Assembly: GCA_902595375.1 (NCBI GenBank)
Contig: CACJPW010000001.1
Location: 88,501 to 152,500, forward strand
Direction of reading: 5' to 3'
Length of the DNA stretch: 64,000 bases
Origin: an uncultured Pelagibacteraceae bacterium
GTDB taxonomy: Bacteria > Pseudomonadota > Alphaproteobacteria > Pelagibacterales > Pelagibacteraceae
Part shown: one piece after another, positions 31,540-60,283 of the stretch
Numbering within the stretch: the first letter of the stretch is position 1
Layout of the letters: every line of letters starts with the position of its first letter
Notes under the pieces: model-generated
The model's database searches: none
The model's input: only the letters and a program-made list of their open reading frames with translations
What the model was told of the DNA's origin: nothing
Made by a program: the position numbers and the translations under genes

Positions 31540-31551
31540 AAAATATTTTAG

Positions 31552-31668
31552 CCTGGCAACGTCCTACTCTCCCGTATCTTAAGACAAAGTACCATCGGCG
31601 CTGAAGGACTTAACTTCCGAGTTCGGAATGGGATCGGGTGTTGCCCCTTCGCAATAATTACCAGGCAC
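31552..31668 (-). rRNA. rrf: 5S ribosomal RNA (no 16S/23S adjacent)
   Basis: Reverse complement TGTGCCTGGTAATTATTGCGAAGGGGCAACACCCGATCCCATTCCGAACTCGGAAGTTAAG...GATGGTACT...GGGAGAGTAGGACGTTGCCAGGC. Confidence 0.95.
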
Positions 31669-43193: not shown

Positions 43194-44009
43194 TTATAAA
43201 ATTTCTTTTAAAGCCTTCTCATATTGAGACTTGGATAAAACTGCATGGTGCCAGTCGTTATTATTTTCTGAAAACGAAAATCCCTTACCCTTTATTGTTT
43301 TTGCGATTAACGCATTTGGTTTATTATTGCCATTATCTTTTTTAAAATAGTCGTTTATTTCTTTTATATTATGACCGTCTAACATGGAAACATTCCAACC
43401 AAAACTAGACCATTTATTTTCAAGTCCTTTTAATGACATAATTTGATTATTTGAACCAGTTTGCTGAAAATTATTATTATCTATAATTATATTCAAGTTG
43501 TTCAGCTCGAAGTGTGCTGCTGCCATCGCGGCTTCCCATACTGAACCCTCGTTACACTCCCCATCACCAATCACTACGAAAACATTATTATTTTTTTTCT
43601 TTTTTTTAAATGAAATTGCTACTCCTATACCTAGAGATAAACCCATACCTAAAGATCCGTTAGAAAAATCTATTCCTATATTTCGATTAATAACTGGGTG
43701 TCCAAGTAAGTTGCTATTATCTTTCTCAAATGTTTTGAGTTCCTCAGAGGACAAATATCCTATTTCACATAGTGCGGCATAGTAAGCTAAGCATGCATGG
43801 CCTTTGCTTAAAATAAACCTATCTCTATCAGGCCATTCTGGATTATTATTAAATTTCATTTTATTTCCAAACAAGACTGAAATAATATCTACAATTGATA
43901 AAGCCCCTCCAAAGTGGGAACTTGATGCTCCAGCGTAAAAAGCCATATCTAAAATGTTTTTTCTAATATTTTTGGACAATTTTTCAATTTTTAAAAGTTC
44001 ATTATTCAT
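43194..44009 (-). CDS. Transketolase N-terminal (TPP-binding) subunit
   Basis: DRFILSKGHACLAYYAAL; GSLGMGLSLGIGVA; VVIGDGECNEGSVWEAAMAAAHF. Confidence 0.92.
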   Translation of the reverse strand: MNNELLKIEKLSKNIRKNILDMAFYAGASSSHFGGALSIVDIISVLFGNKMKFNNNPEWPDRDRFILSKGHACLAYYAALCEIGYLSSEELKTFEKDNSNLLGHPVINRNIGIDFSNGSLGMGLSLGIGVAISFKKKKKNNNVFVVIGDGECNEGSVWEAAMAAAHFELNNLNIIIDNNNFQQTGSNNQIMSLKGLENKWSSFGWNVSMLDGHNIKEINDYFKKDNGNNKPNALIAKTIKGKGFSFSENNNDWHHAVLSKSQYEKALKEIL

Positions 44010-44012
44010 AAT

Positions 44013-44753
44013 TTACATTCCTCCTGAAACAAAAATTGTCTCTCCGCTAACGTGATTAGATAGGTCTGATGCTAAAAATAGTGATACATTTGCAATATCA
44101 TTTGGTGTAGCAATCTTGTTTAAAGGAGTTTGATTTAAAGCTTCCTTAATTTCTTTTTCAGAAGTTTGGTTCTTCATCTCAGTATCGGTTAAACCAGGCG
44201 CGATTGCATTAACACAAATTTTATATCTTCCCAACTCTTTGGATAATACTTTTGTAAGAGCAATAACTGCTGATTTACTAGATGCATACCCAGATCTTCC
44301 TGGACTACACAATGTGGCTGCATTTGAAGAGATATTAATTATTTTTCCATTGCTACTTTTTGTGATTAACTTTAGTAATTTTTGGGTAAAACTGTATGTC
44401 GCAAAAAAGTTAACTTCAAATATTTCTCTTAGACTTTTTAAAGTTGTCATTTGAAATAGGGAAATTTGATTAATACCAGCGTTATTTATTAAGATGTCAA
44501 CTTTTTGTGATAATTCTTTAATTTTTTTAAATCCTTTTTCAATTTCGCTCTCGTTAGAAAGATCAAATTCAACGATATCAATTTTTCTACTATTTTCTTT
44601 TGATAATTCACTAATTTTTTTTTCAAATATGTTATTTGTTTTTCTAACACAGGCTATAATTTTAGCTCCGTGATTAGAATAAGTTTCAAGCATTGATAAA
44701 CCAATGCCGCGGTTACAGCCTGTTATTACTGCTGTTTTATCTTTTAATAACAT
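44013..44753 (-). CDS. SDR oxidoreductase, 3-oxoacyl-ACP reductase-like
   Basis: AVITGCNRGIGLSMLE; NNAGINQ; SGYASSKSAVIALTKVLSKEL. Confidence 0.88.
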   Translation of the reverse strand: MLLKDKTAVITGCNRGIGLSMLETYSNHGAKIIACVRKTNNIFEKKISELSKENSRKIDIVEFDLSNESEIEKGFKKIKELSQKVDILINNAGINQISLFQMTTLKSLREIFEVNFFATYSFTQKLLKLITKSSNGKIINISSNAATLCSPGRSGYASSKSAVIALTKVLSKELGRYKICVNAIAPGLTDTEMKNQTSEKEIKEALNQTPLNKIATPNDIANVSLFLASDLSNHVSGETIFVSGGM

Positions 44754-44755
44754 AC

Positions 44756-45814
44756 TTAAACAAAATCTTCTTCAGAAAAAATATCTTTGGCTAGAGCAGG
44801 TTTAAATATTGTCTGACCGCTTTTAGTCATAAATTTTTTTATAAACTCCTTATCTTCGCCGGCCAAACAAAGATCACTGTGATTTCTAAAATATTTAATC
44901 TTAAAACCATGATCTATAATCTCTTTTAGTGACTGTTCGAAAATATTTCCAATTTTTATGTGCACGTATGGGCAAACTAAGACATCTCCTATAGGCGTAA
45001 TGTAGACTCTATTTACTGTGGTGCAGCCTAGAATTTTTTCATGGTTTTTATCAAAAGGGTTCCATATATTTCTAACAAGATTTTTATATTCTTTTCGTAT
45101 TTTTCTTAAGTAGGCTCTATCTTGATCATCGCAAATAATATTTTCTGCGTTTTGCCACATTCCCGAGGGCACAGCTACATTAAGAAGTGTTCTGTACCTT
45201 TTATTTTTTGAGTAATCTAATAATTGTTTAAAATGCTCTGTATTAGCGTTGTAGTGGCCAACTGTAATATTTAAATAAGGATCCATCCCCGCGTTTTTTA
45301 CATGTTCTAAAGCTGCTATAGCTCTTTTCCAAGACTCTTTTCTGCCTCTTATCTCATCATGAATTTTTTCATCCATACTATCTATACTTACTGAAACTCT
45401 ACTAACTTTATATTCGGCAAGTTTCTTTGCCATCTTGGCATCCAAATAAAAACCATTGGTTGTTAAGTACAAATAAAATCTTTCTGGTTTTATTGCCTCT
45501 AGCACCTCGAAGAGTTTTTTTGGTTGTAGTAAAAGTTCCCCACCTTGTAAATCAAATTCAAAATAACCTAATTCATCTGCTTCATCTGCTAATTTTTTTA
45601 TGGCATTTATATCCAAATATTCTTTTACATGATCTCCTTTTGGAGAATTTGTAAAACAATATTTACATCTTAAATTACAAGCGTTATTAAAATTAAGATC
45701 AATTCCTCTTGTTTTTGTTCCTACCTTGCCATCATTTTTTTGAACATAGGTATAAAAATCTTTTAATTTTTCAACTAACCTAGGTTTATTTAATAATGAA
45801 GATGCTATGGGCAT
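44756..45814 (-). CDS. Radical SAM/SPASM domain protein
   Basis: NACNLRCKYCFTNSP (CxxxCxxC), C-terminal CTTVNRVYITPIGDVLVCPYVHIKIGN. Confidence 0.9.
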   Translation of the reverse strand: MPIASSLLNKPRLVEKLKDFYTYVQKNDGKVGTKTRGIDLNFNNACNLRCKYCFTNSPKGDHVKEYLDINAIKKLADEADELGYFEFDLQGGELLLQPKKLFEVLEAIKPERFYLYLTTNGFYLDAKMAKKLAEYKVSRVSVSIDSMDEKIHDEIRGRKESWKRAIAALEHVKNAGMDPYLNITVGHYNANTEHFKQLLDYSKNKRYRTLLNVAVPSGMWQNAENIICDDQDRAYLRKIRKEYKNLVRNIWNPFDKNHEKILGCTTVNRVYITPIGDVLVCPYVHIKIGNIFEQSLKEIIDHGFKIKYFRNHSDLCLAGEDKEFIKKFMTKSGQTIFKPALAKDIFSEEDFV

Positions 45815-46276
45815 TTATTTTAGTTTGTATTTGTTAATTTCATCCGGTAATATCAGGCTAAATTCAGCTTTACAAGCCAAGTTTTCTCCCATCATACCTT
45901 TTCCCTCACATAATGCTACACCTCTTTTAAAAGATTTAATTTTGGTATGAATATTTAGCCTGGAACCTGGTGTGATTTTTTTTATGAATTTTAAGTTAGT
46001 TGCTGATGTCAAATATACAACTTTTCCTTTATTACCAGGTAAACTTAAAATAGCTAATGCAGCCATCTGTACTAAAGATTCGATTTGTAACATTCCAGGT
46101 ACATTTGGATCATTTTTCCAATGCACTTTGAAAAACCATTCGTTATTTTTAAAATCTTTAAATCCTCTAGCACTTAATCCTGGTCTAACCTCAGTTGCAT
46201 GATCTATCATTAAATATGGATCTCGATTTTGTTGATAATCATGTATCATTTTTCTATCTAATTCTAGTGTGTTCAT
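45815..46276 (-). CDS. 3-hydroxyacyl-ACP dehydratase-like (FabZ/hotdog fold)
   Basis: DPYLMIDHATEVRPG...WKNDPNVPGMLQIESLVQMAALAIL. Confidence 0.85.
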   Translation of the reverse strand: MNTLELDRKMIHDYQQNRDPYLMIDHATEVRPGLSARGFKDFKNNEWFFKVHWKNDPNVPGMLQIESLVQMAALAILSLPGNKGKVVYLTSATNLKFIKKITPGSRLNIHTKIKSFKRGVALCEGKGMMGENLACKAEFSLILPDEINKYKLK

Positions 46277-47457
46277 TGTATTTTCAATCCTCGTGATAAA
46301 GAACTAATTACATCTACTCCATCCCATAAAAGAGTAATATCTAAAGATTGTCCTATTGGCACAATTCTATCAATTCCTTTCAATTTATTATCAATAACAA
46401 ATTTTTTGATAATAGATTTATCAACTCCAAAATATGTAACAGTTTGATATTTATTATTTACTATTGTTTTTAACTTATTTAAATCTTTAAGATCATATTC
46501 AAAAAACAGACCCCATTTTCCTCTATTTAGATGATTTTTATCGTCAACACTATTTAATTTAATTTTATATAATAAATTGTTAAAATTTTTTATACTTTTG
46601 ATATTTCTTAAAGAAGCTGCGTATTTACAAAGATCGCTATACTTTTCAATAATTGCAGACTCTGTTAAATTATAGTTGTTTTTGATCGTTTGATGTAATT
46701 TAAGCCAAAATTTATTTTTAGTTTTTTCACATTGATCCCCAAGCCAAACGATAAGATGTGGAGATGAGCAAGCATTTTGATCTACTAAATAGGTATCATT
46801 GTAAAATTTTTTTATTAAATTATTGAATTCTAATTCCTTTAATTTTTTTAGTTTAGCTGAACTTATTAAACAAAATGAATATCTATCTGCAAATGTGATG
46901 TCTAATGCACGTTCGTTTATTCTATAAGATCTAATATCGTTGATAGTTTTATCTCCTCCCCAAATTACTCTAGCATTACAAATTGATGACAACTTCTTCG
47001 TAAAATTCTGATTATTTTTGTATTTAACAACAGTGATTTTATCTTTTAATAAAGTATTATTTTTTAGTAGTTTTTTAATTATTCTACATATAATGTTTAT
47101 TTGTTCAAAATTTTTTGACGGAGCTTTTACTACGTTGGCGTTTCCGGATAAAAGGCCAAAAATTAACGAATAGGCAAAATTTGTAGGAATATTTGCAGGT
47201 GTAATATGGAAAATCAATCCAACGCCTAACCTGGCATATGAAAAATTATAATTTTTTTTCATATTCAAAAAGTTATTTTTTCTGCACCAAAAAGACAATG
47301 ATTTTAAATCAGGATAATCTTTAAGGTTTTCAACATTGGCAAGTTCTTTGGAAAATGAATTTAAAAATTTTATTACATCATTATTAAATGGCTCAAAAGG
47401 CTCAAAGTTAAATTTTGGACCTCCAACTAAATATTTAATTTCCTTTTCAAAAGTCAT
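46273..47457 (-). CDS. Acyl-CoA reductase (LuxC-like)
   Basis: GLIFHITPANIPTNFAYSLIFGLLSGNANVVKAPSK; VDQNACSSPHLIVW. Confidence 0.85.
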   Translation of the reverse strand: MTFEKEIKYLVGGPKFNFEPFEPFNNDVIKFLNSFSKELANVENLKDYPDLKSLSFWCRKNNFLNMKKNYNFSYARLGVGLIFHITPANIPTNFAYSLIFGLLSGNANVVKAPSKNFEQINIICRIIKKLLKNNTLLKDKITVVKYKNNQNFTKKLSSICNARVIWGGDKTINDIRSYRINERALDITFADRYSFCLISSAKLKKLKELEFNNLIKKFYNDTYLVDQNACSSPHLIVWLGDQCEKTKNKFWLKLHQTIKNNYNLTESAIIEKYSDLCKYAASLRNIKSIKNFNNLLYKIKLNSVDDKNHLNRGKWGLFFEYDLKDLNKLKTIVNNKYQTVTYFGVDKSIIKKFVIDNKLKGIDRIVPIGQSLDITLLWDGVDVISSLSRGLKIQ

Positions 47458-48461
47458 ACGTCGCTACATCCTCTAATTTCAGATTGCTCTGCCCTACCAT
47501 AAACTTTAAACTTTTTGTTTGTTTTACATACTTTACAATTATTGCTAACAATTTCTCCAATATCCTCAGTTAAAATGCTGTGACCAGGATAGCTTTTAGG
47601 AAGGATAGACAAAAGTTGAATAAATCCCTTTTGGTTATTAGGAATCGTCTTGAAATCTTTATCTCTAATTAGTATTTCTGAATATTTACTGGGCGTAAAG
47701 CACCCACATCCCTTACATTCAAAAAATATAGAGCCGGTTTGTTCAATAAGTCCATAATAATTATACACATTAATTAATTTTAATTTTTGTTTTAGTCTCT
47801 CTTTATAAACTTTGTTGGAAATCTTAATTTCCTCCATTTTTTTCCATCCACCACCGTGTATTAAAATCCCATTTGCAAAATTGTGTTTAAGTTTTTTTAA
47901 CTCAACTTTTTTAATCAAATTTTCGAAAACTAAACTAGTAAAGCCAAAAATTAAGAATTTTTTTGAACTGTATTTCTCTAAGAATTTATTTAGAGATTTA
48001 TAATCTATTGAACCATTTTTGATTAAATATTCATGATTATTCCCAAACATATAGAAGCCAATAATTGCAGCAGTTTTTGCATCAAATTTATTTGGATTAT
48101 TTATGTTTTTTTTTTCATCAATAATTAACATTGGCATTCTTTTTTTTCCAATAATCTTAGAAACTATCTCATTAAGGACTATAGTTTGTTTCCTAGCATT
48201 CTCTTTATCAAGGTAAATTTTGGCAGGCTTTCCACTACTTGTTCCAGATGAGTTTAAAACCTTAAAAACCTTTTTACTAGGAATACTTTTTAAATCAATC
48301 TCTTTAAAAAGTTTTGCAGGTATAAAAGGAATTTCATCTAATTTTATTTTTTTTTTTGAGGAATAAACTAAATCCACGATCTTTTTATACTGGATAGAAT
48401 TTTGATAATGATAATTATTTAATTGAGTTATTTTTTGCAAAAAATGCTTATTTTTTTCCAT
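47454..48461 (-). CDS. LuxE-like acyl-protein synthetase
   Basis: PAKLFKEIDLKSIPSKKVFKVLNSSGTSSGKPAKIYLDKE. Confidence 0.85.
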   Translation of the reverse strand: MEKNKHFLQKITQLNNYHYQNSIQYKKIVDLVYSSKKKIKLDEIPFIPAKLFKEIDLKSIPSKKVFKVLNSSGTSSGKPAKIYLDKENARKQTIVLNEIVSKIIGKKRMPMLIIDEKKNINNPNKFDAKTAAIIGFYMFGNNHEYLIKNGSIDYKSLNKFLEKYSSKKFLIFGFTSLVFENLIKKVELKKLKHNFANGILIHGGGWKKMEEIKISNKVYKERLKQKLKLINVYNYYGLIEQTGSIFFECKGCGCFTPSKYSEILIRDKDFKTIPNNQKGFIQLLSILPKSYPGHSILTEDIGEIVSNNCKVCKTNKKFKVYGRAEQSEIRGCSDV

Positions 48462-49839
48462 AATTCAAATCTTTAAAAGTTTTGTTAAACTTTTTGTTAA
48501 TAACTATAAAATTCTGATTAATTTTAAATTTATCTTTTAAATCTAGTTTAATCTTTTCCTCTTTATTTTGATTATTATATAAATTAAGCTTGAGTGCTTT
48601 GTCTTCAATTATACAACGAACTTTAATACCTTTTTCCTGAAGAAACTTTTCTATTTCTATTAAATCTAGTCTTTTGCCATAAATTTTTATAAATTTACTT
48701 TTTCTGCCAACGATATAAATGTAACCATCTTTATCTTTAAATCCTAAATCTCCAGTATAAAGAGTTTTTTTGTTAGTATCTCCTTTTTTTAAATCTTTAA
48801 TAGTTTTGGCGTATCCTAGACAAACATTGTCACCGTAAAACACAATCTCACCTTTTTTATTAATTTTTAATGATTTTTTTTTCGAATTTATTATTTTAAT
48901 TTTATAATCTTTCAATGGTTTGCCGATACTTTTCTTCTTTTCAAAAAATTGTGGCCATTTCAAAATTGTCATTCTTGGACTTGCTTCTGTCTGACCGTAC
49001 ATAATATAAAATTTTGCATTATTTCTCTTACATAGTGCTCCTAAATATTCTGCTGTGTTATCATCTAATTTACCTCCTGCCTGGGTTATATAACTTATCG
49101 ATTTTAAAAAATATTTCTCAAAATTAATCTTTTTTAAAATTTCATAAAATTCTGGCACTCCACCGAAAGAATTAATATTATATTTTTTAACCTTATTCCA
49201 AAAAGTTTTTTCTAAAATAGTGTTATTATTCAAAATAATTTTTCCGCATTTGTAAAGATGAGTATTTAAGATGGATAAACCATATGAATAACCTAAAGGC
49301 ATTGTTGTGACGGTCGAATGGCTTTTCTTTATTGGAAGACTTGCGCAAATTTTCTTAGTATTATCTGTAATATTTTTTTTTGATAGTCTAACAAATTTAG
49401 GACTTTGTGTAGTTCCTGATGTAGATAAAAGTAAAAAATTTTTAAAATCTAAATTTTTGTTATAATTATAATTTGTTTCAAATATCGCGTATGAATAAAT
49501 ACTGATAACTGTTTTATATTTTTCGATCAAATTGGTTTTTTTTTTAGGGGATAAAACATAATTAGGTTTAAATTTTTCAATAGTATCTTTTATGAACTTA
49601 TCTGAGAAAGATACATCAACCAAAATATTGATGACATTTTTACAACTTAATAACGAAACATATCCCAAAACAAATGGTGCTGAATTATCTGCAATAAGTA
49701 AAATTACAGATTTATTGTTAATTTTACTTTTTGAAAAATCAATATAATCGCTAAGGTTTTTATATTTTAAAACACCTATTTCATCATCAACTAAAGCGAT
49801 TGAATTTGAATTGGCTTTAAATTTTTTGAACATTTCCAT
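48448..49839 (-). CDS. AMP-dependent acyl synthetase/ligase
   Basis: LLLSTSGTTQSPKFVRLSKKNI; YIMYGQTEASPRM; TGDLGFKDKDGYIYIVGRKSKFIKIYGKRL. Confidence 0.9.
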   Translation of the reverse strand: MEMFKKFKANSNSIALVDDEIGVLKYKNLSDYIDFSKSKINNKSVILLIADNSAPFVLGYVSLLSCKNVINILVDVSFSDKFIKDTIEKFKPNYVLSPKKKTNLIEKYKTVISIYSYAIFETNYNYNKNLDFKNFLLLSTSGTTQSPKFVRLSKKNITDNTKKICASLPIKKSHSTVTTMPLGYSYGLSILNTHLYKCGKIILNNNTILEKTFWNKVKKYNINSFGGVPEFYEILKKINFEKYFLKSISYITQAGGKLDDNTAEYLGALCKRNNAKFYIMYGQTEASPRMTILKWPQFFEKKKSIGKPLKDYKIKIINSKKKSLKINKKGEIVFYGDNVCLGYAKTIKDLKKGDTNKKTLYTGDLGFKDKDGYIYIVGRKSKFIKIYGKRLDLIEIEKFLQEKGIKVRCIIEDKALKLNLYNNQNKEEKIKLDLKDKFKINQNFIVINKKFNKTFKDLNYGKK

Positions 49840-49844
49840 ATTTA

Positions 49845-50606
49845 TTAAATTTTTTCTCCTCTTATTAATCCAGAATTATTTTTAATTTCGCTTTTCATTA
49901 ATTCATAGGCTACATTAATATCAATTATCGAAAACTTAATTTTCTTAAAAGAGGTTTGTATTAAAGCTTTTTTGTTCTTTAAGATTTTATCGAATTTTTT
50001 ATCGATTACAGTTTTAGATACTTCATTAATTTTTCTAACATACATTTTATAGGTCTTATTAATTTTTTTCCCGTTACGCTCCGTATATTTTCCCTCAAAT
50101 TTTTTTATATACCTATAATTTACACCTATTTTTTCTTCGGCAACATGTACAAAAGTGAATGCTTCTTTGTAATCAATATCAATAAATAAATTTTTACCTT
50201 TGTTCTTTATCAGGTAACCAAATGGAGAGTCGAAACCAAAACAACTTTTATGCTGCATTGAAGAAATTTTATTTTTATCTTTACCGTAAATTGTAAAAGA
50301 ATAGATCGGATTTTTAGATCTATTAAAATCTTTCATTTTCAGCGAAAGATTACTCAATGCTCCTGTATTAGATTTTGTATTAAAATAATCGAATGATTTA
50401 CCTTTACAAAAATCCCAATTAAAAGCTGGAAACAAAAGATTTCCATCTGGAGAAATTTTTTTTATTAAAATTTCAATAATATTTTTTGGCAAATTTTTAT
50501 CTTTAAAAATGGAAATTAATCTTAAAATATTTGAATTAACTAAAATTTTATCATTTTTTTTAATATTTAGTCGGTTTAAAATTTTGTCAAAAGGAAAATC
50601 ATTCAT
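49845..50606 (-). CDS. AAC(3)-family N-acetyltransferase-like protein
   Basis: ISPDGNLLFPAFNWDFCKGKSFDY...TGALSNLSLKMKDFNRSKNPIYSFTIYGKD. Confidence 0.8.
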   Translation of the reverse strand: MNDFPFDKILNRLNIKKNDKILVNSNILRLISIFKDKNLPKNIIEILIKKISPDGNLLFPAFNWDFCKGKSFDYFNTKSNTGALSNLSLKMKDFNRSKNPIYSFTIYGKDKNKISSMQHKSCFGFDSPFGYLIKNKGKNLFIDIDYKEAFTFVHVAEEKIGVNYRYIKKFEGKYTERNGKKINKTYKMYVRKINEVSKTVIDKKFDKILKNKKALIQTSFKKIKFSIIDINVAYELMKSEIKNNSGLIRGEKI

Positions 50607-50626: not shown

Positions 50627-50941
50627 TTATTTTTTTTTTAATTCAGTTTTTAATTCATCGTATTCTTTTAATTTTTTTTTCATAAAATTAATCGTGAGTT
50701 TTGTTTTTTCTGCAATCCCTTTGGGAGTCAGCACATAGAGGTAATTTATTTTGTTTGGATTTTTTTGAAAATTTTTTATTTTTATTAAGCCTTTTGCCTT
50801 TAAAGCTTTTAAACAATAGTTCAATTTACCAAGGCTCAAACCCAAATCCTGGGCTAGTTCTCTTTGTGAGGAATTGGGTTTATTCTTAATTTTTCTGAGT
50901 AAATCGAAATGTTCTTGCTTAAGTTTTTCATTATTGTTCAT
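50627..50941 (-). CDS. MarR-family EPS-associated transcriptional regulator
   Basis: wHTH: SSQRELAQDLGLSLGKLNYCLKALKAKGLIKIKNF...YLYVLTPKGIAEKTKLT. Confidence 0.85.
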   Translation of the reverse strand: MNNNEKLKQEHFDLLRKIKNKPNSSQRELAQDLGLSLGKLNYCLKALKAKGLIKIKNFQKNPNKINYLYVLTPKGIAEKTKLTINFMKKKLKEYDELKTELKKK

Positions 50942-50952
50942 AATTTGAACAT
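50933..50952. promoter_or_regulatory. Candidate operator, copy 1 (ATTGTTCATAATTTGAACAT)
   Basis: Inverted repeat TGTTCA-N5-TGAACA overlapping the regulator start codon; identical 20-mer at 58981. Confidence 0.7.
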
Positions 50953-51048
50953 AATAATCTTAAATAAGATTTTAGTAAAGTAAAATGTTTAAATGCTGAA
51001 AATAAATGATAAAATGAATATAATACTTTTATAATGTTAAAGTAGTTA

Positions 51049-52590
51049 ATGAAAAAAAATATCAAAATTTTAGATTGTACATTAAGAGATGGTGGATACT
51101 ATACAGATTGGAATTTTACGGAAGAATTTACCAATCAATATTTTTTAGCTGTAGCAAATTCACCTATTTCTATAATAGAGTTAGGTTATCTATCTGATGA
51201 AAGAGATAGTAACGGGCAGTTTTATCATTTAAACAAAAAAATATTAACTGAAGCAAAAAATATACTAAACAAAAATCAAAAAATTTTTGTAATGGTGAAT
51301 TTTAAAGAGATTAATAACTCTAAAGATTTGGACAGATTGCTTAAAGAAAAGTCAAAATATATAGACGGTGTTAGATTCGCTGTTGCGCCTAAAGACCTTA
51401 AAAAATTTACAATGATTGTTTCGAAAACAGCAAATAAGTATAAAAAAATTTCTTTTAATTTAAATCTTATGTATTTAAGCAAATGGTTTAACGAGGATAA
51501 ATCAATAAAATTAATTTTCAAAAATATTTCAAAATTTATTGATACAGTAGCATTTGTAGATAGCTATGGTGCACTTAAACCAGATGATATTTATTCTTTT
51601 ACAAAAAAAATTAATTCCCTATACAAGAATAAATTTATATATGGTGCTCATTTCCATAATAATTGTGGTCTTGCTTTGGCAAACTCATTAGTTGCTAATG
51701 ATAATGGTTGTGAAATAGTTGACAGTACTTTTTTAGGAATGGGTCGAGGTGCGGGAAATGCTGAGACAGAATTATTAATATCAATTTATCCGCATTTGAG
51801 AAAAAAGATTAAAGGATTTTACTTAAATAACTTTTTAGAAAAACTAAAATTATTAAAAAATAAACTTAATTGGGGAAGTTCTTTTGCTTACGCTTTTGCT
51901 TCTCAAAATGGATACTCTCAAGCTGAAATGATGAACTTAATTCAAAAAAGAAGATTGGATCCCTCTACTGCTATTGAAGTCGTATCAAATAATAATGTTG
52001 GAGATAAAATTACTTTTAAAAAAACAAATAATTCTAAAAGCCTTAAAAAATTGAAATCTGATACACCAGTTTTTATTGGTGGAGCGAAAAGCTTCTTGCA
52101 ATACGGAAAACAATTACTTGGATCGATAAATAAAAACGTCCCAATAATTTTTAGTGGTAGTAATGCTTTAACAAATTTTATTGACTCAAAATTTGATATA
52201 GCAAATCCAAAGTTTTTGATTTTGACAGGAAATGAGATTAACAAAATAAAGTACGAAAAAAAGACGAATTTTTTGAAAGAATTAGAGTGTGTAATCGCTG
52301 AGGAAAAATTTATTTCTGAAAAAATAAAAAAACTTAATACTAAAATTATTTACTCTAATACTATAGCTGCAAACCCATTAATGCTCCTCGGAAAATTATT
52401 AATCAATCTAAAGATGAAAAAATTAAAATTAGCATTTTTTGATGGTGATTATGAAAATGAGAAAGAAAAAATCATATTTGAAGAGACACAAAAATGTATT
52501 GACTCACTAATAAAACAAAAAATAAATATTATAAGTATTACAAAAACAGCATATAAATTGCATTTTTCAAATCCTTGGCTCAATGATTAG
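51049..52590 (+). CDS. Aldolase-type (DRE-TIM/HMGL-like) protein with extra C-terminal domain
   Basis: KILDCTLRDGGYYTDWNFTEEF; GAHFHNNCGLALANSLVA; GMGRGAGNAETELL. Confidence 0.85.
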   Translation: MKKNIKILDCTLRDGGYYTDWNFTEEFTNQYFLAVANSPISIIELGYLSDERDSNGQFYHLNKKILTEAKNILNKNQKIFVMVNFKEINNSKDLDRLLKEKSKYIDGVRFAVAPKDLKKFTMIVSKTANKYKKISFNLNLMYLSKWFNEDKSIKLIFKNISKFIDTVAFVDSYGALKPDDIYSFTKKINSLYKNKFIYGAHFHNNCGLALANSLVANDNGCEIVDSTFLGMGRGAGNAETELLISIYPHLRKKIKGFYLNNFLEKLKLLKNKLNWGSSFAYAFASQNGYSQAEMMNLIQKRRLDPSTAIEVVSNNNVGDKITFKKTNNSKSLKKLKSDTPVFIGGAKSFLQYGKQLLGSINKNVPIIFSGSNALTNFIDSKFDIANPKFLILTGNEINKIKYEKKTNFLKELECVIAEEKFISEKIKKLNTKIIYSNTIAANPLMLLGKLLINLKMKKLKLAFFDGDYENEKEKIIFEETQKCIDSLIKQKINIISITKTAYKLHFSNPWLND

Positions 52591-53275
52591 TTTTTTTTTA
52601 CCAATACGAAAAGGTAGCAAAAGATTGAAAAGAAAAAACATCAAGTCCCTTCCAGGTTATAAATTAGGATTAACAGAGATAAAAATTCATCAATTAAACA
52701 AATTTAGAAAAATAATTTTAAAAAATAAACTCGGGCCTTATTCTCTAAAAAGTTTTGAATTTGTTGTTTCAACAGACTGTGAGATAATAAAAAGATTTGT
52801 TAAAAAATTTCAGTGGATAAAGTTGCATAATAGAACAAAGATATTATCAAGTGATAATTCTCTTGATAAACTTATTCTTAAAGTACCAGAAATTTGTAAT
52901 GGGGATTTCATTCTATGGACCCATGTTACTAGTCCTCTTTACGATCATAATTGTTATTATAAATTTTTAAAATCGTTTTTTATGAATAAGAACAATAAAA
53001 GCGCATTTTCTGCCGATTTAATTAGGAAATTTATATTTAGCCCTGAAAAAAAATGGATCACTCATAAAAATAACAAATTAAAATGGCCTAGGACGCAGGA
53101 TCTCGACCCTTTATATGTTGCAAATAGTTGTGCATTTATAGCCAAACGGGAAATATATCTAAAAAATAAAAATCGCCTGTGTAAAAATCCTTTGCCTATA
53201 ATTTCAGATTACGGCAGTGGACTAGACATAGACGACCCCGGGGATTTTGATAATTTTAAAAAAAGCTTAAAGTAG
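52583..53275 (+). CDS. Acylneuraminate cytidylyltransferase-like protein
   Basis: FFLPIRKGSKRLKRKNIKSLPG; HVTSPL; ISDYGSGLDIDDPGDF. Confidence 0.82.
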   Translation: MISFFLPIRKGSKRLKRKNIKSLPGYKLGLTEIKIHQLNKFRKIILKNKLGPYSLKSFEFVVSTDCEIIKRFVKKFQWIKLHNRTKILSSDNSLDKLILKVPEICNGDFILWTHVTSPLYDHNCYYKFLKSFFMNKNNKSAFSADLIRKFIFSPEKKWITHKNNKLKWPRTQDLDPLYVANSCAFIAKREIYLKNKNRLCKNPLPIISDYGSGLDIDDPGDFDNFKKSLK

Positions 53276-53288
53276 CAATAATAAATTT

Positions 53289-54500
53289 ATGCTTAAAAAA
53301 TTAGTCCTTTTTTTTAAAATTTACAGAAAATGTAAAATAAGTTTTAAGATACCAAAAAAAGATATATTAATTTTTGATAAAGAAGGGTTGCCAGAATTAA
53401 AACAAAATATCTTAGAAAATTTAGATTATTTTATATTAGAGAATAGAACTCACCATTTAAGTAAATTATTTTTTACGTATAGACTTATTCTAAATATTTT
53501 AAAAAATCTTCATAAATTGTTTGGTCAAAATAAACTTAAAATTCAAGATTTATATTTTTTAAGTTTAATTAAAATTGTAAATCCAAAAATAATTTTGACA
53601 TTAATTGATAATAGTGATCAATTTTCAAGAATAGCAAAAAATGTTGACCATGACGTAAAAATTATAGCAATTCAGGGTGCGATGAGGCATGTTTGGGATT
53701 TTTCTGAGTATATGTTTAAAAAAAAAATTATTAAGAAAAATCTAAATCAAAGATTGTTTATACCCTATTATTTATGTTTCGGTAAATTTGAAATTGATGA
53801 ATGTAGAAAATTTAAAATAAAAGTAGGAAAATTTAAACCTATTGGAAGTCTTAAATTGTCAAACTTTTTAATCGAAAAAGAAAACAATAATGATATTAAA
53901 AAATTTGATATTTGTTTATTATCAGATATTGGAGCTTGGAATGATACATTTGAAAACAAGCGACTTGATATATTTGACCAAGCACAAAGAGGTTTTTTAA
54001 AACTTATAAAATGGACAATTAAGTATTCTTTGCATAAAAACTTGAAATTTGTATTTGCTTTTAAAGGAAGAAAAAATAGTAAAGGTAGTGCAAGAGAACT
54101 TGCATTTTACAAATCAAATTTATCTCAAGATGAATTTAATTATATAACTACCTATTCATCAATGAGTAGTGAGTCTCAAAGATACAATTCTTATTATTCA
54201 GCATATGGAAGTGAATTGACTATCGCCAAAACATCTACAATCCTCAGAGAAATGTTGGCATGTAAAAATAAAATCTTAGCATGTAATTTAACAGGGATTG
54301 ATTTATTTAATTTTCCAGTAGGAGGCATTTGTAATTTGAAAAATTGTGACTACAATCAATTTTCTAAGAGGATTAATGAAATTTTAGAAATAAAACACGA
54401 TAAATACTTAAGCAAAATTTCAAATAGAAAAAGTGATATGATTTTTCAGTCTAGTCCTAAAGAGGTAATTAAAGCAATAAAAAATGAATTAATATGGTAA
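53289..54500 (+). CDS. Putative surface carbohydrate biosynthesis protein
   Basis: GT-B/polysaccharide-synthase-like IIAIQGAMRHVW...YYLCFGKFE; genomic context. Confidence 0.55.
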   Translation: MLKKLVLFFKIYRKCKISFKIPKKDILIFDKEGLPELKQNILENLDYFILENRTHHLSKLFFTYRLILNILKNLHKLFGQNKLKIQDLYFLSLIKIVNPKIILTLIDNSDQFSRIAKNVDHDVKIIAIQGAMRHVWDFSEYMFKKKIIKKNLNQRLFIPYYLCFGKFEIDECRKFKIKVGKFKPIGSLKLSNFLIEKENNNDIKKFDICLLSDIGAWNDTFENKRLDIFDQAQRGFLKLIKWTIKYSLHKNLKFVFAFKGRKNSKGSARELAFYKSNLSQDEFNYITTYSSMSSESQRYNSYYSAYGSELTIAKTSTILREMLACKNKILACNLTGIDLFNFPVGGICNLKNCDYNQFSKRINEILEIKHDKYLSKISNRKSDMIFQSSPKEVIKAIKNELIW

Positions 54501-54507
54501 ATTTAAA

Positions 54508-55227
54508 TTAATAAGATTTACAAAGTTTATAAAAATTATTCTTTCCTGGGGTACAATTATGCTTTTTTATAAATTTTCTGAGTCTTTTGAGATCTTTCAG
54601 TGTGTCAATTGTAAAAGAAAAATTTTTTTTAAATCTTTTATAATATCCAAAAGATTTAAATTTATTAATTTTAGCTGAAAATTTTTTATTATAGAAAAAC
54701 CAAGTTGGAGACTCTTGATTTTTAATATTAAACTTTTTATCGTTTACAAATAATTTTTTTGAGGAAAAAATTTCTAAGGAAATACCCTTTGGATAGTCAC
54801 TTTTGACTTTCCATCTTTTAGAATGGCTCATTGCTCGAGTTGTAAGATAATCAGATTTTGATGAAATAAAATATCTAATAAAAGAATCTATTAATTTTGG
54901 ATCGACTAATGGATTGTCAGCAGTTATTCTTAAAAGAATATAGTTTTTTTTATCATCAAAAAATTTATACCTACTGTAAACGTTTTTTTCTGAACCCTTA
55001 ATAATATTAATTTTGTATTTCTTGGTAACATAAGAAATCAGCTTATGATTATTTTTTTTTTTAGATGTGAGTAAAAAAATATTTTTTTTGTTGAAAAAAG
55101 ACGAGCTTAAAATATTTCCAATTATAAAATCAATTAATCTAAATTTAGTAGTAAGAAATTTCATTGATTTACCAGGAAGTCTTTTAGAGCCCATTCTGGC
55201 TTCAATAACACATTTTAAATTTTTCAC
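54508..55227 (-). CDS. Cytidylyltransferase family protein (SpsF-like)
   Basis: CVIEARMGSKRLPGKSMKFL; LLRITADNPLVDPKLID. Confidence 0.87.
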   Translation of the reverse strand: MKNLKCVIEARMGSKRLPGKSMKFLTTKFRLIDFIIGNILSSSFFNKKNIFLLTSKKKNNHKLISYVTKKYKINIIKGSEKNVYSRYKFFDDKKNYILLRITADNPLVDPKLIDSFIRYFISSKSDYLTTRAMSHSKRWKVKSDYPKGISLEIFSSKKLFVNDKKFNIKNQESPTWFFYNKKFSAKINKFKSFGYYKRFKKNFSFTIDTLKDLKRLRKFIKKHNCTPGKNNFYKLCKSY

Positions 55228-56255
55228 GATTTCAAATTTTTGTAAGCAACAAGTTGGTTCTTCTTAACTTTGTTTTTTATTTTAACGCCAATAATTTTAC
55301 TGAAATCTTCAATTTTTACGCCCTTCTTATTAAATGGTCTTAAAAAAATTACATCATTTTTTTTAATCTTTTCATGCTTATTTAAATTTCTTGAGAAGTA
55401 AATACTTCTTCTCAATGTTTTTTTTCCATATTTTTCACAATTAAACTCTTTCTCTCTTTTTAAACCAATTATTTTATAATTTTCTTTAATTAAAATAATT
55501 AATCTCTTTAGATCAATATGATTTATTGAAAGTTGATAGTCACCTGCAAGCTTAGTTTTTTTAGGCATAAAATGCTTTTCAATAACTTGTGCTCCAAAAA
55601 AAATTGAGTTAGCAGCTGTTTCAATTCCTGGCACATGATCTGAGTACCCAGTCGTAACTTTAAATTTTTCCCTCAAAAATTTTATATTAATTAAATTCGC
55701 ATCTTTTTTCAATGTTGGGTAGCTGGAAACACAATGAAGTAAAATTACTTTTTTTTTTGGAAAAAATTTTAATGCTTTTTCAATTTCATTTAATGAGGCC
55801 ATACCTGATGAAATTATGACCTTTTTTTTAGTTCTAGCTATTTCTTTTAATAATAGATAATTATTTATATCTCCTGAAGCCACTTTGAAAAAAGATACGT
55901 AATTTTTTATTTTATTAACGTACTTGTAATCAAAAGGAGTAACACAAAAATCAATTTTAATTTTTTTAGCGAGCTTAGATAATATCTTTAAATGTTCGAT
56001 AGTAATTTTTACTTTTTTGAATCTCTCGTGCTGGTATTTCAATCTTTTATCTTTTACGTGCTTGTAAACTTTTAATTTTTGATTTACTAAGTTATTTTCG
56101 TCAAATAATTGAAATTTTACACAATCCGCTCCTGCTTTTTTTGCAAGGTAAATTGATTGTTCGGATAGTTTTTTTTTACCTAAATGATTACTTCCTACTT
56201 CAGCAATGACATAGGGAATTTTTCTGTTTAACATTTTTCTGATTATTTTTTCCAC
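55224..56255 (-). CDS. N-acetylneuraminate synthase family protein (NeuB-like, SAF domain)
   Basis: YVIAEVGSNHLGKKKLSEQSIYLAKKAGADCVKFQLF; SSGMASLNEIEKAL; GYSDHVPG. Confidence 0.92.
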   Translation of the reverse strand: MEKIIRKMLNRKIPYVIAEVGSNHLGKKKLSEQSIYLAKKAGADCVKFQLFDENNLVNQKLKVYKHVKDKRLKYQHERFKKVKITIEHLKILSKLAKKIKIDFCVTPFDYKYVNKIKNYVSFFKVASGDINNYLLLKEIARTKKKVIISSGMASLNEIEKALKFFPKKKVILLHCVSSYPTLKKDANLINIKFLREKFKVTTGYSDHVPGIETAANSIFFGAQVIEKHFMPKKTKLAGDYQLSINHIDLKRLIILIKENYKIIGLKREKEFNCEKYGKKTLRRSIYFSRNLNKHEKIKKNDVIFLRPFNKKGVKIEDFSKIIGVKIKNKVKKNQLVAYKNLKS

Positions 56256-57397
56256 TTAATGTTCGGGTCAAGCGTATTTAAATTTATTCTATTTTGATTT
56301 TTTTTTACCAGTTTAAATATTTTGTCTATTTGATTATCATCCATAATTATAGGTTTTAATCCTAGCGATATTAATGAAGTATTAGTTGGATTGTAATAAT
56401 GATCTTCATCCTCAATTCTAGGATTTTCTATATGAGTTACATTTGATCTAATTTTGTTTTTGTCAGCATAATTTTTAATTTTTTTTGCAATTTCATTAAG
56501 AGAACAAAACTCTGTAAACTGATTAAAAACTCTAAATTCTCCGTTTTTTGGGGGATTTTCACAAGCAATGGAAACACATTTTATTGTATCAGAAATATTT
56601 AAGTACGATCTTTTTTGGTCTCCTTTTCCATAAACTGTCATATCTTTGTTGCATGCTATTTGTGTAATAAATCTATTAATAATTGTTCCAAAAATTGAAT
56701 CATAGTGAAAAGCAGTTGATAAATTTTCATAATCTAATTCCATTTCTTCAGTTGAAATGCCATAAACAAATCCCTGATTTAAATCGGTACATTTCAAGCC
56801 CCAAATTCTGCAAGCAAATTCTATATTTGCGCTATCGTGAACTTTTGATAGGTGGTAGAAACTACCAGGTTTTTTTGGGAATAGTACTCTATCTTTTCTT
56901 CCCTTGTGCTCTAACTCAAGCCAACCCTCCTCAATATCAATGTTTGGAGTGCCATATTCTCCCATTGTGCCTAACTTAATTAAATGAGAATTAGGACAAA
57001 ATTTTTTCATCGCAAATAAAAGATTTAAGTTTCCTATTACGTTATTGTGTTGAGTAAAGACTGCTTTTTCTCTTGATGCCATGGAATATGGTGCTGAAGG
57101 TTGTTCAGCATAATGAATAATGGTGTCAGGTCTAAATTCTTCTAAAATTTCACACAGGACTTTATAATTTAATAAATCTGCTACTAAATACTTAATTTGA
57201 TTTTTTTGATTCTTGTTCCAAATGTTAACTCTCTCATTAAAAGGTTTTAATATATTAATAGGCTCAACGCCATACTCGGTCTCAATTTTTCTTTTTGATA
57301 AATTATCAACTGCGTAAACTTCATAGCCTTTTTTAGAAAAGTACATCACGGTAGGCCAGCCTAAATAACCATCTGCTCCAAGGATTAAAATTTTCAT
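56243..57397 (-). CDS. UDP-sulfoquinovose synthase-like (SQD1/SqdB family) NAD-dependent epimerase
   Basis: MKILILGADGYLGWPTVMYFSKKGYEVYAVDNL; IHYAEQPSAPYSM; KLGTMGEYGTPNIDIEEG; PGSFYHLSKVHDSANIEFACRIWGLKCTDLNQGFVYG. Confidence 0.9.
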   Translation of the reverse strand: MKILILGADGYLGWPTVMYFSKKGYEVYAVDNLSKRKIETEYGVEPINILKPFNERVNIWNKNQKNQIKYLVADLLNYKVLCEILEEFRPDTIIHYAEQPSAPYSMASREKAVFTQHNNVIGNLNLLFAMKKFCPNSHLIKLGTMGEYGTPNIDIEEGWLELEHKGRKDRVLFPKKPGSFYHLSKVHDSANIEFACRIWGLKCTDLNQGFVYGISTEEMELDYENLSTAFHYDSIFGTIINRFITQIACNKDMTVYGKGDQKRSYLNISDTIKCVSIACENPPKNGEFRVFNQFTEFCSLNEIAKKIKNYADKNKIRSNVTHIENPRIEDEDHYYNPTNTSLISLGLKPIIMDDNQIDKIFKLVKKNQNRINLNTLDPNIKWKK

Positions 57398-58254
57398 TTT
57401 ATATTGTAGGTATTCTTATACCAATTATAAGTTATTGCAAATTTTTTAGTTAGATCTTTTTTTTCTTTTAATATTTTTTTATTGTAAACCGTATCATCGT
57501 ATCCGCTTGGTGTTTTTACAAATTCATAACTAATTGTCTTTTTTGAAATTTTATTAAGAATATGTAATAAATCAATTATTCTTAAATATCTATTGTTATT
57601 AATTTTAAACTCTTCAAAAGGTTTTCTAGAATTCAATGATAAATATAATTTTTTACAAACGTCCTCAACAAAAATAAAGTCTCTTTCCTGCATTCCTTTT
57701 TTATGAATTTGAATTTTTTTATTATTGATAATTTGTTTTATAAATGCGTGAACAGAGCTTAATTTATGTAATGAGTAAGGTCCAAATACATTAGAAATCT
57801 TACAAATTTTAATATTCATTTTATAAATTTTATTAAACGACCTACAAATATTTTCACAAGCGATCTTTGTTAGAGCGTAAATGCTTGGATTTTTGTAAAA
57901 ATTATTAACACCCATTGATGAAGCTACTATTATATCTTTAATTCCGAAACTTTTGCACGCAGTTAAAAGATTAAGTGTTGCTGAAACATTATCTTCGTAC
58001 GCCTTTTTCGGTTTTTTGTGGCAGTTTACAAAGCCTGGGAGAGCAGCAAGATGTATCACCTTTTTTATTTTTTGTTTTCTAAATAATCTTAATATTTCTG
58101 ATTTATTATTTAAATTAAATTTTGCAAAATTTTTTATTTTAAAATATGGATTAAAAACTTTATCTACACCAAAAAACTTAATATTTTTTTTTTGAAAAAA
58201 TCTAATCAGATTAGATCCAATAAACCCAGAACTGCCTGTAACTAAAATAGTCAT
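57394..58254 (-). CDS. NAD-dependent epimerase/dehydratase
   Basis: ILVTGSSGFIGSNLIRFF; IYALTKIACENICRSF; RDFIFVEDV. Confidence 0.87.
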   Translation of the reverse strand: MTILVTGSSGFIGSNLIRFFQKKNIKFFGVDKVFNPYFKIKNFAKFNLNNKSEILRLFRKQKIKKVIHLAALPGFVNCHKKPKKAYEDNVSATLNLLTACKSFGIKDIIVASSMGVNNFYKNPSIYALTKIACENICRSFNKIYKMNIKICKISNVFGPYSLHKLSSVHAFIKQIINNKKIQIHKKGMQERDFIFVEDVCKKLYLSLNSRKPFEEFKINNNRYLRIIDLLHILNKISKKTISYEFVKTPSGYDDTVYNKKILKEKKDLTKKFAITYNWYKNTYNIK

Positions 58255-58919
58255 ATAAGATTTTTTAAAATTACGTAAAGTTTAGCACAGTTTTTTTTTA
58301 GGAAATTGTGTGACATATTACCAGTATGTTTTAAATAAAAATAATGTGATTGATTTATATAACCCTTATTAAAGTTTTGTTTTTTTTTTATTTTAAGCCA
58401 AAAATCAAAATCGTCTTGAAACTTTAGATTTTCATCAAAACCTCCTACAGCTCTCCAAAGTTTTTTATTAAATATTGAACCACTTCCCATTGGGTAATTA
58501 AAATTATTAAATTTTTTGAAATTTTGATTAATTGTTTTTATCTTTTTTCCTTTATCATCTATTTCCATAATATTACCACAAATATAGTCTAATTTTTTTT
58601 TTATCAATTGATTGTATAGGCTGCTTATAAATTTATTTGAAACATAATCATCTGCATCTATTTTTGTTATCCATTCTGATTTAGACTTTTTTATTCCAAA
58701 ATTAATAGATTTACTTAAAGAATTAAAATTCTTTTTAAAATATTTAATTTTCTGTGTTTTTTTTTTTAATTTTTTAGCGACATACTCTGTGTTATCTTTA
58801 CTTGAGTCATTAATTATAATTATTTCTCTTAAAAAAGACTTATCGTTATCTAAAATGCTTTCAACGCATTTTTGCAAATATTTACCGTAATTGTGACAAG
58901 TTACTACAAATGATATCAT
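58251..58919 (-). CDS. Glycosyltransferase family 2
   Basis: SFVVTCHNYGKYLQKCVESILDNDKSFLREIIIINDSSKDNT; TKIDADDYV. Confidence 0.9.
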   Translation of the reverse strand: MISFVVTCHNYGKYLQKCVESILDNDKSFLREIIIINDSSKDNTEYVAKKLKKKTQKIKYFKKNFNSLSKSINFGIKKSKSEWITKIDADDYVSNKFISSLYNQLIKKKLDYICGNIMEIDDKGKKIKTINQNFKKFNNFNYPMGSGSIFNKKLWRAVGGFDENLKFQDDFDFWLKIKKKQNFNKGYINQSHYFYLKHTGNMSHNFLKKNCAKLYVILKNLI

Positions 58920-58980
58920 TTTTTATGTTAAATCACCAAAAATATAAGGGTTTTAAACAAATTTGGACAAATGTAAAGAT

Positions 58981-59000
58981 ATTGTTCATAATTTGAACAT
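58981..59000. promoter_or_regulatory. Candidate operator, copy 2 (ATTGTTCATAATTTGAACAT)
   Basis: Identical 20-mer to 50933-50952; between divergent genes; contains a possible -35 (TTGAAC 58993-58998), 17 nt before TATATT (59016-59021). Confidence 0.7.
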
Positions 59001-59026
59001 TAAGCTTATATTTGTTATATTTTGTC

Positions 59027-60283
59027 ATGAGAATTAAAAGAACTATTGAAGATCTTTTTTATATGCCTCGTAGTATAATAAGTGAGCCTACTAGGAAAAC
59101 AATGAGATATATTAAAAAGCATATACCTAAAATATCTATAATAAAATTTAAATCAGGAAAAAAAGTTTTTGATTGGGTAGTGCCAAACGAGTGGAATATA
59201 AATGATGCGTATATAATGGAACCGAATGGTAAGAAAATTTTAGATTTTAGAAAAAATTTGTTAAGTATTGTTTATCATTCATCTCCTGTAAAAAAATGGA
59301 TATCAAGAGCAGAGCTTTTGAAGAAGATACATTATGATGATAAATTACCTAATGCTACTCCTTATGTAACATCTTACTATAAAAAAGACTGGGGTTTTTG
59401 TATGCCAAAAAATAAAGTAAAAAAATTAAAAAAGCATAAATATTTTGTAAGTATTGATACAACTTTTAAAAAAAGCTTTCTTGAAATAGGAGAGTATTTT
59501 AAAAAAGGTAAACAAAAAAAGGAAATTTTTTTTTCAACATATATTTGTCACCCGTCTATGGCTAATGATAATTTATCAAGTCTAGCTGTTCAAATACACC
59601 TTATCAACTACTTGGAAAAAAAATATCCTAAATCTAATTTTTCATATAGATTTGTTTTTTTACCAGAAACTATCGGATCCATAAGTTATTTGTCTAAGAA
59701 AATTACAATTTTAAAAAAAAATATGATTATGGGTTTTGCATTAAGCTGTCTTGGAGACGACAATCAATATAGCATTATTAGTTCTAGACACGGTAAACAA
59801 CTATCGGACTTGGCCTTAAATTCAGCATTAAAAGGAAAAAAAAAATTAGTCAAATTTAGTTATCTTGATAGAGGGTCGGATGAAAGACAATATTGTTATC
59901 CTGGAGTTGACTTACCAGTTACTGGATTTTGTAGATCAAGGTTTCATAGTTTCAAAGAGTATCACACAGATAAAGATGATTTAAAATATGTTTCGGAAAA
60001 GGGATTGAAAAACTCTTTTGAAATTTTAAAAAATATAATTGACGCAATAGAAAATAAGAATTTTTTTCCAAAAAATAAATTCCTTTGTGAACCGAATTTA
60101 GGTAAGAGAGGTTTGATGTCCACAATTGGTAAAAAATTCTATAAAAAAGGAAAGATGATTAAAAATTTTTTAGTTTATGCGGATGGTAAAAGAAACCTTT
60201 TTGAAATATCTAATACTATTAATTTAAATTTAAATGATACTATTAATATTACTAATAAGTTAAACGAAAATAAATTAATTTGA
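59027..60283 (+). CDS. DUF4910-like / aminopeptidase-like domain protein (track start TTG 59012; ATG 59027 preferred)
   Basis: FFSTYICHPSMANDNLSSLAVQIHLINYL; RFVFLPETIGSISYLS; RGSDERQYCYPGVDLPV. Confidence 0.8.
   Translation: MRIKRTIEDLFYMPRSIISEPTRKTMRYIKKHIPKISIIKFKSGKKVFDWVVPNEWNINDAYIMEPNGKKILDFRKNLLSIVYHSSPVKKWISRAELLKKIHYDDKLPNATPYVTSYYKKDWGFCMPKNKVKKLKKHKYFVSIDTTFKKSFLEIGEYFKKGKQKKEIFFSTYICHPSMANDNLSSLAVQIHLINYLEKKYPKSNFSYRFVFLPETIGSISYLSKKITILKKNMIMGFALSCLGDDNQYSIISSRHGKQLSDLALNSALKGKKKLVKFSYLDRGSDERQYCYPGVDLPVTGFCRSRFHSFKEYHTDKDDLKYVSEKGLKNSFEILKNIIDAIENKNFFPKNKFLCEPNLGKRGLMSTIGKKFYKKGKMIKNFLVYADGKRNLFEISNTINLNLNDTINITNKLNENKLI

Follow-up and report, generated by a model that had tools for sequence, protein, structure and literature searches.

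The locus considered here raises the question of what purpose is served by a 20-bp palindrome that occurs, base for base, in two divergent intergenic regions of a polysaccharide gene island of a SAR11 bacterium. SAR11 cells, which rank among the ocean's most abundant bacteria, possess few regulators, and their surface glycans probably matter in encounters with phages and grazers. The island is located within a 64,000-nucleotide stretch (the window) of contig CACJPW010000001.1 (positions 88,501 to 152,500, forward strand) from an uncultured Pelagibacteraceae bacterium, and an earlier, sequence-only reading had put forward the palindrome as a candidate operator of the MarR-like regulator encoded beside its first copy. 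The results presented below support that proposal through the uniqueness of the palindrome, its co-occurrence with the regulator, its position at the regulator start codon and its conservation across bacterial classes, and it is very probable, on sequence evidence, that the palindrome is the operator of the adjacent TIGR04176 (MarR_EPS) regulator.

The 20-mer ATTGTTCATAATTTGAACAT was confirmed to be present in exactly two copies in the window, at positions 50933-50952 and 58981-59000, with zero mismatches between them, and no third copy was detected in the window at up to 3 mismatches. Because the chance expectation for the window is 0.05 copies and two copies were reached in no shuffle, the view that the pair is hard to ascribe to chance was upheld. 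The dyad symmetry originally attributed to the whole 20-mer holds for its inner 17 bp, while the outer bases are asymmetric; operator copy 1 (TGTTCATAATTTGAACA) is here placed at 50935..50951 and copy 2 at 58983..58999, neither being assigned a strand. Copy 1 overlaps the ATG of the regulator gene (50627..50941, minus strand) as well as the end of the -10 box predicted for it, and copy 2 lies between the divergent GT2 (58919, minus) and DUF4910 (59027, plus) genes, where it overlaps predicted plus-strand promoter hexamers, both placements being as the sequence-only reading had described them. Across the host assembly (859 kb, 31 contigs, 68% complete), exact matches to TGTTCA-N5-TGAACA were restricted to the two window sites, both of which are intergenic, with no scatter over random coding positions; tolerance of up to 1 mismatch added one further match, carrying 1 mismatch, and the looser pattern GTTCA-N5-TGAAC again returned the two window sites only (reversed control, 1). 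As the assembly is 68% complete, extra copies are possible in its missing parts. A scan for degenerate copies, in which as many as 3 of the 12 fixed bases could mismatch, gave 37 matches in the window against 53 expected, representing no excess.

The product of the regulator gene is a 104-residue protein which scores 131.3 bits against the NCBIfam equivalog TIGR04176 (cut-off, 88; residues 9-103) and also matches the Pfam families MarR and HTH_24. Its AlphaFold2 (AF2) model (mean pLDDT, 84) comprises a winged helix-turn-helix (HTH) with a recognition helix at approximately residues 37-49, a wing, and a 31-residue C-terminal helix (residues 73-103). The top Foldseek matches of the model are BldR, MarR, SlyA and MexR (TMq about 0.6), and the fold resembles that of MarR repressors, including the DNA-bound structures of SlyA and MepR. 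The gene is surrounded by a polysaccharide cluster (GT2, NAD epimerases, NeuB and cytidylyltransferases), which is the setting implied by the family name, and its identification as a MarR-like EPS regulator was thus sustained by the family score, the fold and the surroundings. The literature searched contained neither an operator, a regulon nor a structure for TIGR04176, nor a description of the motif, and what is added here to the family as known is a predicted operator.

Linkage between site and regulator was assessed in 397 genomes of the host's family, 178 of which encode a TIGR04176 protein and 163 of which carry the exact motif. The exact core was present in 141 of the 178 regulator-positive genomes as opposed to 22 of the 219 regulator-negative genomes (odds ratio, 34; Fisher p=1e-47, a value which is descriptive, since the genomes are akin to one another), while the reversed control pattern displayed no comparable link (11/178 versus 6/219). 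Of five regulator-negative, site-bearing genomes that were inspected, two have a regulator gene truncated by the contig end beside the site, and three have the site next to genes resembling targets elsewhere (weakly in one), which indicates that the true linkage is stronger. Conservation of the palindrome beside TIGR04176-type regulators in other SAR11 strains was evident not only from this co-occurrence but also from the presence of sites at regulator start codons. Among 80 loci retrieved with the regulator protein, nearly all from SAR11, 78 harbor a match of at least 12/14 to TGTTCAANNNTTGAACA within 100 nt of the start (random windows, 0.3%), a lone copy at the regulator start being the commonest arrangement. 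The SAR11 consensus is TGTTCAA-N3-TTGAACA, from which the window copies differ at one spacer base.

The site is not confined to SAR11. YGTTCA-N5-TGAACR at 11/12 or better precedes the TIGR04176 gene in 14 of 17 distant loci (in L155, for example, as CGTTCAATATGTGAACA, 43 nt upstream) and in 25 of 29 gammaproteobacterial loci, mostly of different families, a score reached by 0.1-0.24% of shuffles, so that conservation of the operator before the same regulator family extends to other classes of Pseudomonadota. In gammaproteobacterial loci, the 53 nt preceding the operator contain TTGAC in 18 of 34 cases, compared to 4 of 34 on the opposite side; in most of the former, a -10-like hexamer follows at 16-18 bp and ends just before the operator. 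The 36 regulator-bearing gammaproteobacterial genomes contain the pattern 54 times (reversed control, 13), often at the regulator and sometimes repeated within about 1-11 kb. All three exceptions among the 17 distant loci are alphaproteobacterial, and the nine alphaproteobacterial loci formed by these and their relatives carry the half-sites at a 4-nt spacer (3 perfect, 6 at 8-9/10), none being detected in them at spacer 5. The occurrence of the same half-sites before TIGR04176 genes in gammaproteobacteria (N5) and in other alphaproteobacteria (N4) suggests that the operator is a property of the regulator family, and the motif may serve as a searchable, family-wide signature of TIGR04176 regulators in Pseudomonadota.

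Among the loci compared, spacer length tracks regulator clade, an argument that the TIGR04176 protein itself reads the site. Spacer 5 occurs in 78 of 80 SAR11 loci and in 35 of the 37 remaining distant loci whose recognition helix has K/R at position 39; this residue is K in N5 regulators and G, S or A in the nine alphaproteobacterial N4 regulators. It is conceivable in principle that the palindrome belongs to another transcription factor and that its nearness to the regulator is accidental, given that many dimeric factors fit such palindromes and that co-occurrence testing covered only part of the factors of these genomes. This explanation is nevertheless considered very improbable, because site presence tracks TIGR04176, the site sits at TIGR04176 promoters in both Gamma- and Alphaproteobacteria, and its spacer length differs among regulator clades. 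An RNA element (a hairpin, attenuator or terminator) was likewise rejected: although the strand can fold a 6-bp hairpin (-5.5 kcal/mol, z -4), the arms are kept across classes as sequence (GTTCA/TGAAC) and not merely as pairing, a T-run terminator was found at neither copy, and the sites are situated on predicted promoters and in the gaps separating divergent genes.

In a further arrangement, a TIGR04176-type winged helix forms the N terminus of a bifunctional ATP sulfurylase/APS (adenosine 5'-phosphosulfate) kinase, i.e., a 3'-phosphoadenosine 5'-phosphosulfate (PAPS) synthase of ~690 residues, in one alphaproteobacterial family (f13; loci L163-L173) and in a gammaproteobacterium (L254:6619-8658). 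Just upstream of the fusion, all f13 loci (11/11) carry a perfect GTTCA-N4-TGAAC, and the gammaproteobacterial locus carries an N5 site. The motif thus leads on to a PAPS synthase which bears its own DNA-binding domain, possibly an enzyme controlling its own gene; no paper on a winged-helix/PAPS-synthase fusion was found in the literature searched. Residue 39 was rejected as the sole determinant of spacer length, as most of the N4 PAPS-synthase fusions have R and a gammaproteobacterial regulator with R (L202) has N5. Across the regulators compared, no single recognition-helix residue accounts for spacer length.

With regard to the mode of action, a TATAAT-like hexamer ends on the first base of the operator in 33% of regulator sites, compared to an average background of 1.6%, and the predicted transcription start consequently falls within the operator. 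In the window, the predicted regulator promoter (TTTACT-17-TATTAT, 50951..50979, minus strand; a consensus match only) similarly has a -10 box ending on the first base of operator 1. We infer direct binding in a dimeric, repressive mode, whereby the two protomers of a dimer of the 104-residue winged-helix protein would each contact one of the TGTTCA(A) half-sites. Since operator 1 covers the start codon of the regulator gene and also the point at which transcription of that gene is predicted to begin, binding there should exclude RNA polymerase and result in negative autoregulation, which would extend to the downstream acyl-activation operon. Copy 2, which occupies the promoter region separating the GT2/NeuB operon from the DUF4910 operon, would place both under the same control. 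Autorepression is, from the placement of the sites, the most likely mode, and is regarded as probable. Such a system, namely, a MarR repressor that controls its own gene along with a local regulon, would be of an already known kind: the autorepressors MarR, MexR, SlyA, MepR and FabT share with it the winged HTH, a palindromic operator of ~17 bp over their own promoter, and divergent targets nearby. They differ in being ~140 residues long, whereas the model of the 104-residue protein shows neither a separate dimerization domain nor an evident effector pocket, with one long C-terminal helix in their place. Because the modeled monomer consists of the winged HTH and this single helix, without a separate effector domain, control through a protein partner, redox control and constitutive control are all possible.

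Activators exist within the MarR family, and the regulator could bind its site as an activator or dual regulator instead of a repressor, a minority of distal sites being located over 80 bp away from the start codon, where activation is possible. We consider this unlikely, as the site at regulator genes, in SAR11 and gammaproteobacteria alike, covers the start codon and the point of predicted transcription initiation, a position of steric repression, and the promoter matches of the DUF4910 gene also overlap operator 2. Several points nevertheless weigh against repression by a bound dimer. An activator or a dual role would produce much the same pattern at distal sites; the AF2 model is that of a monomer, so that dimerization of the regulator is inferred by analogy; the promoter assignments rest on consensus matches; several site-to-start distances depend on crude open reading frame calling (TTG starts within the site); and the divergent neighbor of the regulator gene (51049..52590, plus strand; an HMGL-like aldolase family member) has its best promoter match 45-73 bp beyond operator 1. 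The last of these bears on the claim that the two sites could control up to four divergent transcripts, which is better grounded for the regulator, GT2 and DUF4910 genes, with sites at or near their promoters, than for the 51049 gene, although its homologues in three other SAR11 genomes have the operator 19-33 bp upstream of the start.

The proposed repressor appears to be tied to a defined genomic region. Hypervariable region 2 (HVR2) of SAR11 lies between the 5S and 23S rRNA genes and encodes cell surface functions (PMC2217521); following that definition, the 5S rRNA gene at 31551..31665 (minus strand) marks one HVR2 border in the window. The regulator was located between 5S and 23S in all eight genomes in which the three genes share one contig. 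This agrees with the 5S/23S-flanked region of cell surface genes described in PMC2217521, of which the sections considered here treat gene content and recombination and contain no regulator or operator belonging to the region. Within 2.1 Mb of SAR11 loci, picked for presence of the regulator, 142 sites were identified, 7 of them inside genes, against an average of 0.17 for 119 permuted palindromes. The genes beside sites fall into 61 non-regulator clusters, most of which were met once or twice (regulator genes constitute cluster 0, and the list of distal sites still includes regulator sites). They include genes for GDP-mannose dehydratase-like proteins, DegT aminotransferases, cytidylyltransferases, UDP-GlcNAc 2-epimerase, an ABC transporter and AMP-ligase, as well as radical SAM proteins, carbamoyltransferase, asparagine synthase, PEP mutase and sulfotransferase; several had no Pfam match.

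In SAR11 HVR2, the predicted operator and the regulator are constant, and the surface-glycan genes which bear the operator vary by genome. The regulator would act as the resident controller of HVR2 across SAR11, governing a local HVR2 regulon. That identical copies flank 8 kb of a hypervariable island might alternatively mark them as recombination sites bounding a mobile or invertible cassette, an explanation which was rejected, given that other genomes carry one to seven copies with differing spacers beside unrelated genes, that a single copy at the regulator start is commonest, and that the promoter position is conserved in gammaproteobacteria. Returning to the operator, we tentatively suggest that HVR2 is an operator-tagged local regulon in which the small resident repressor and TGTTCAA-N3-TTGAACA are fixed and exchanged surface-glycan cassettes bring or gain the operator, so that new surface chemistry would at once come under common control; the same module and operator, joined to PAPS synthase in other proteobacteria, would there yield an enzyme potentially able to regulate its own gene. 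Neither the motif nor its range across the family, the 4- and 5-nt spacer classes or the constant-operator, variable-cargo layout of HVR2 was found described in the literature searched. With a defined predicted operator and regulator for HVR2, expression control of the SAR11 surface becomes testable.

As regards the genes adjoining the two window sites, the regulator is directly followed on the same strand by an Antibiotic_NAT-type acetyltransferase gene (49845..50606, minus) and then by AMP-ligase, LuxE, LuxC, FabA-like, radical SAM, SDR and transketolase genes. As the gaps are 0-20 bp, the regulator is likely to be co-transcribed with the Antibiotic_NAT-type and AMP-ligase/LuxE/LuxC/FabA genes down to position 43194. 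The genes at 43194-49839 (minus), including LuxC-, LuxE- and FabA-like, AMP-ligase, radical SAM and transketolase genes, represent an acyl activation/reduction cassette within a surface-glycan island. At operator 2, the minus-strand operon begins with the GT2 glycosyltransferase gene (58251..58919), followed by epimerases, NeuB and a CMP-sugar-type cytidylyltransferase. The plus-strand operon (DUF4910/PhyH) is headed by a DUF4910/DUF2172 protein gene (59027..60283; ATG at 59027), for which two promoters are predicted, each by consensus match only: TGGACA-17-CATAAT (58964..58992, plus), with its -10 inside operator 2, and, alternatively, TTGAAC-17-TATATT (58993-59021, plus), whose -35 is an operator 2 half-site. 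The DUF4910/DUF2172 protein possesses a C-terminal HTH_47 winged helix, yet heads a biosynthetic-looking operon.

In three genomes, no more than 130-150 bp separate the regulator gene from the 23S rRNA gene, which places the regulator at the border of HVR2. Two SAR11-like regulator loci occur in records labelled as Woesearchaeota and Neomarinimicrobiota metagenome-assembled genomes and are probably mis-binned contigs. Finally, about a dozen loci contain tandem operators upstream of the regulator, spaced 22-25 bp start to start (~two helical turns), an arrangement which suggests cooperative binding by two dimers.

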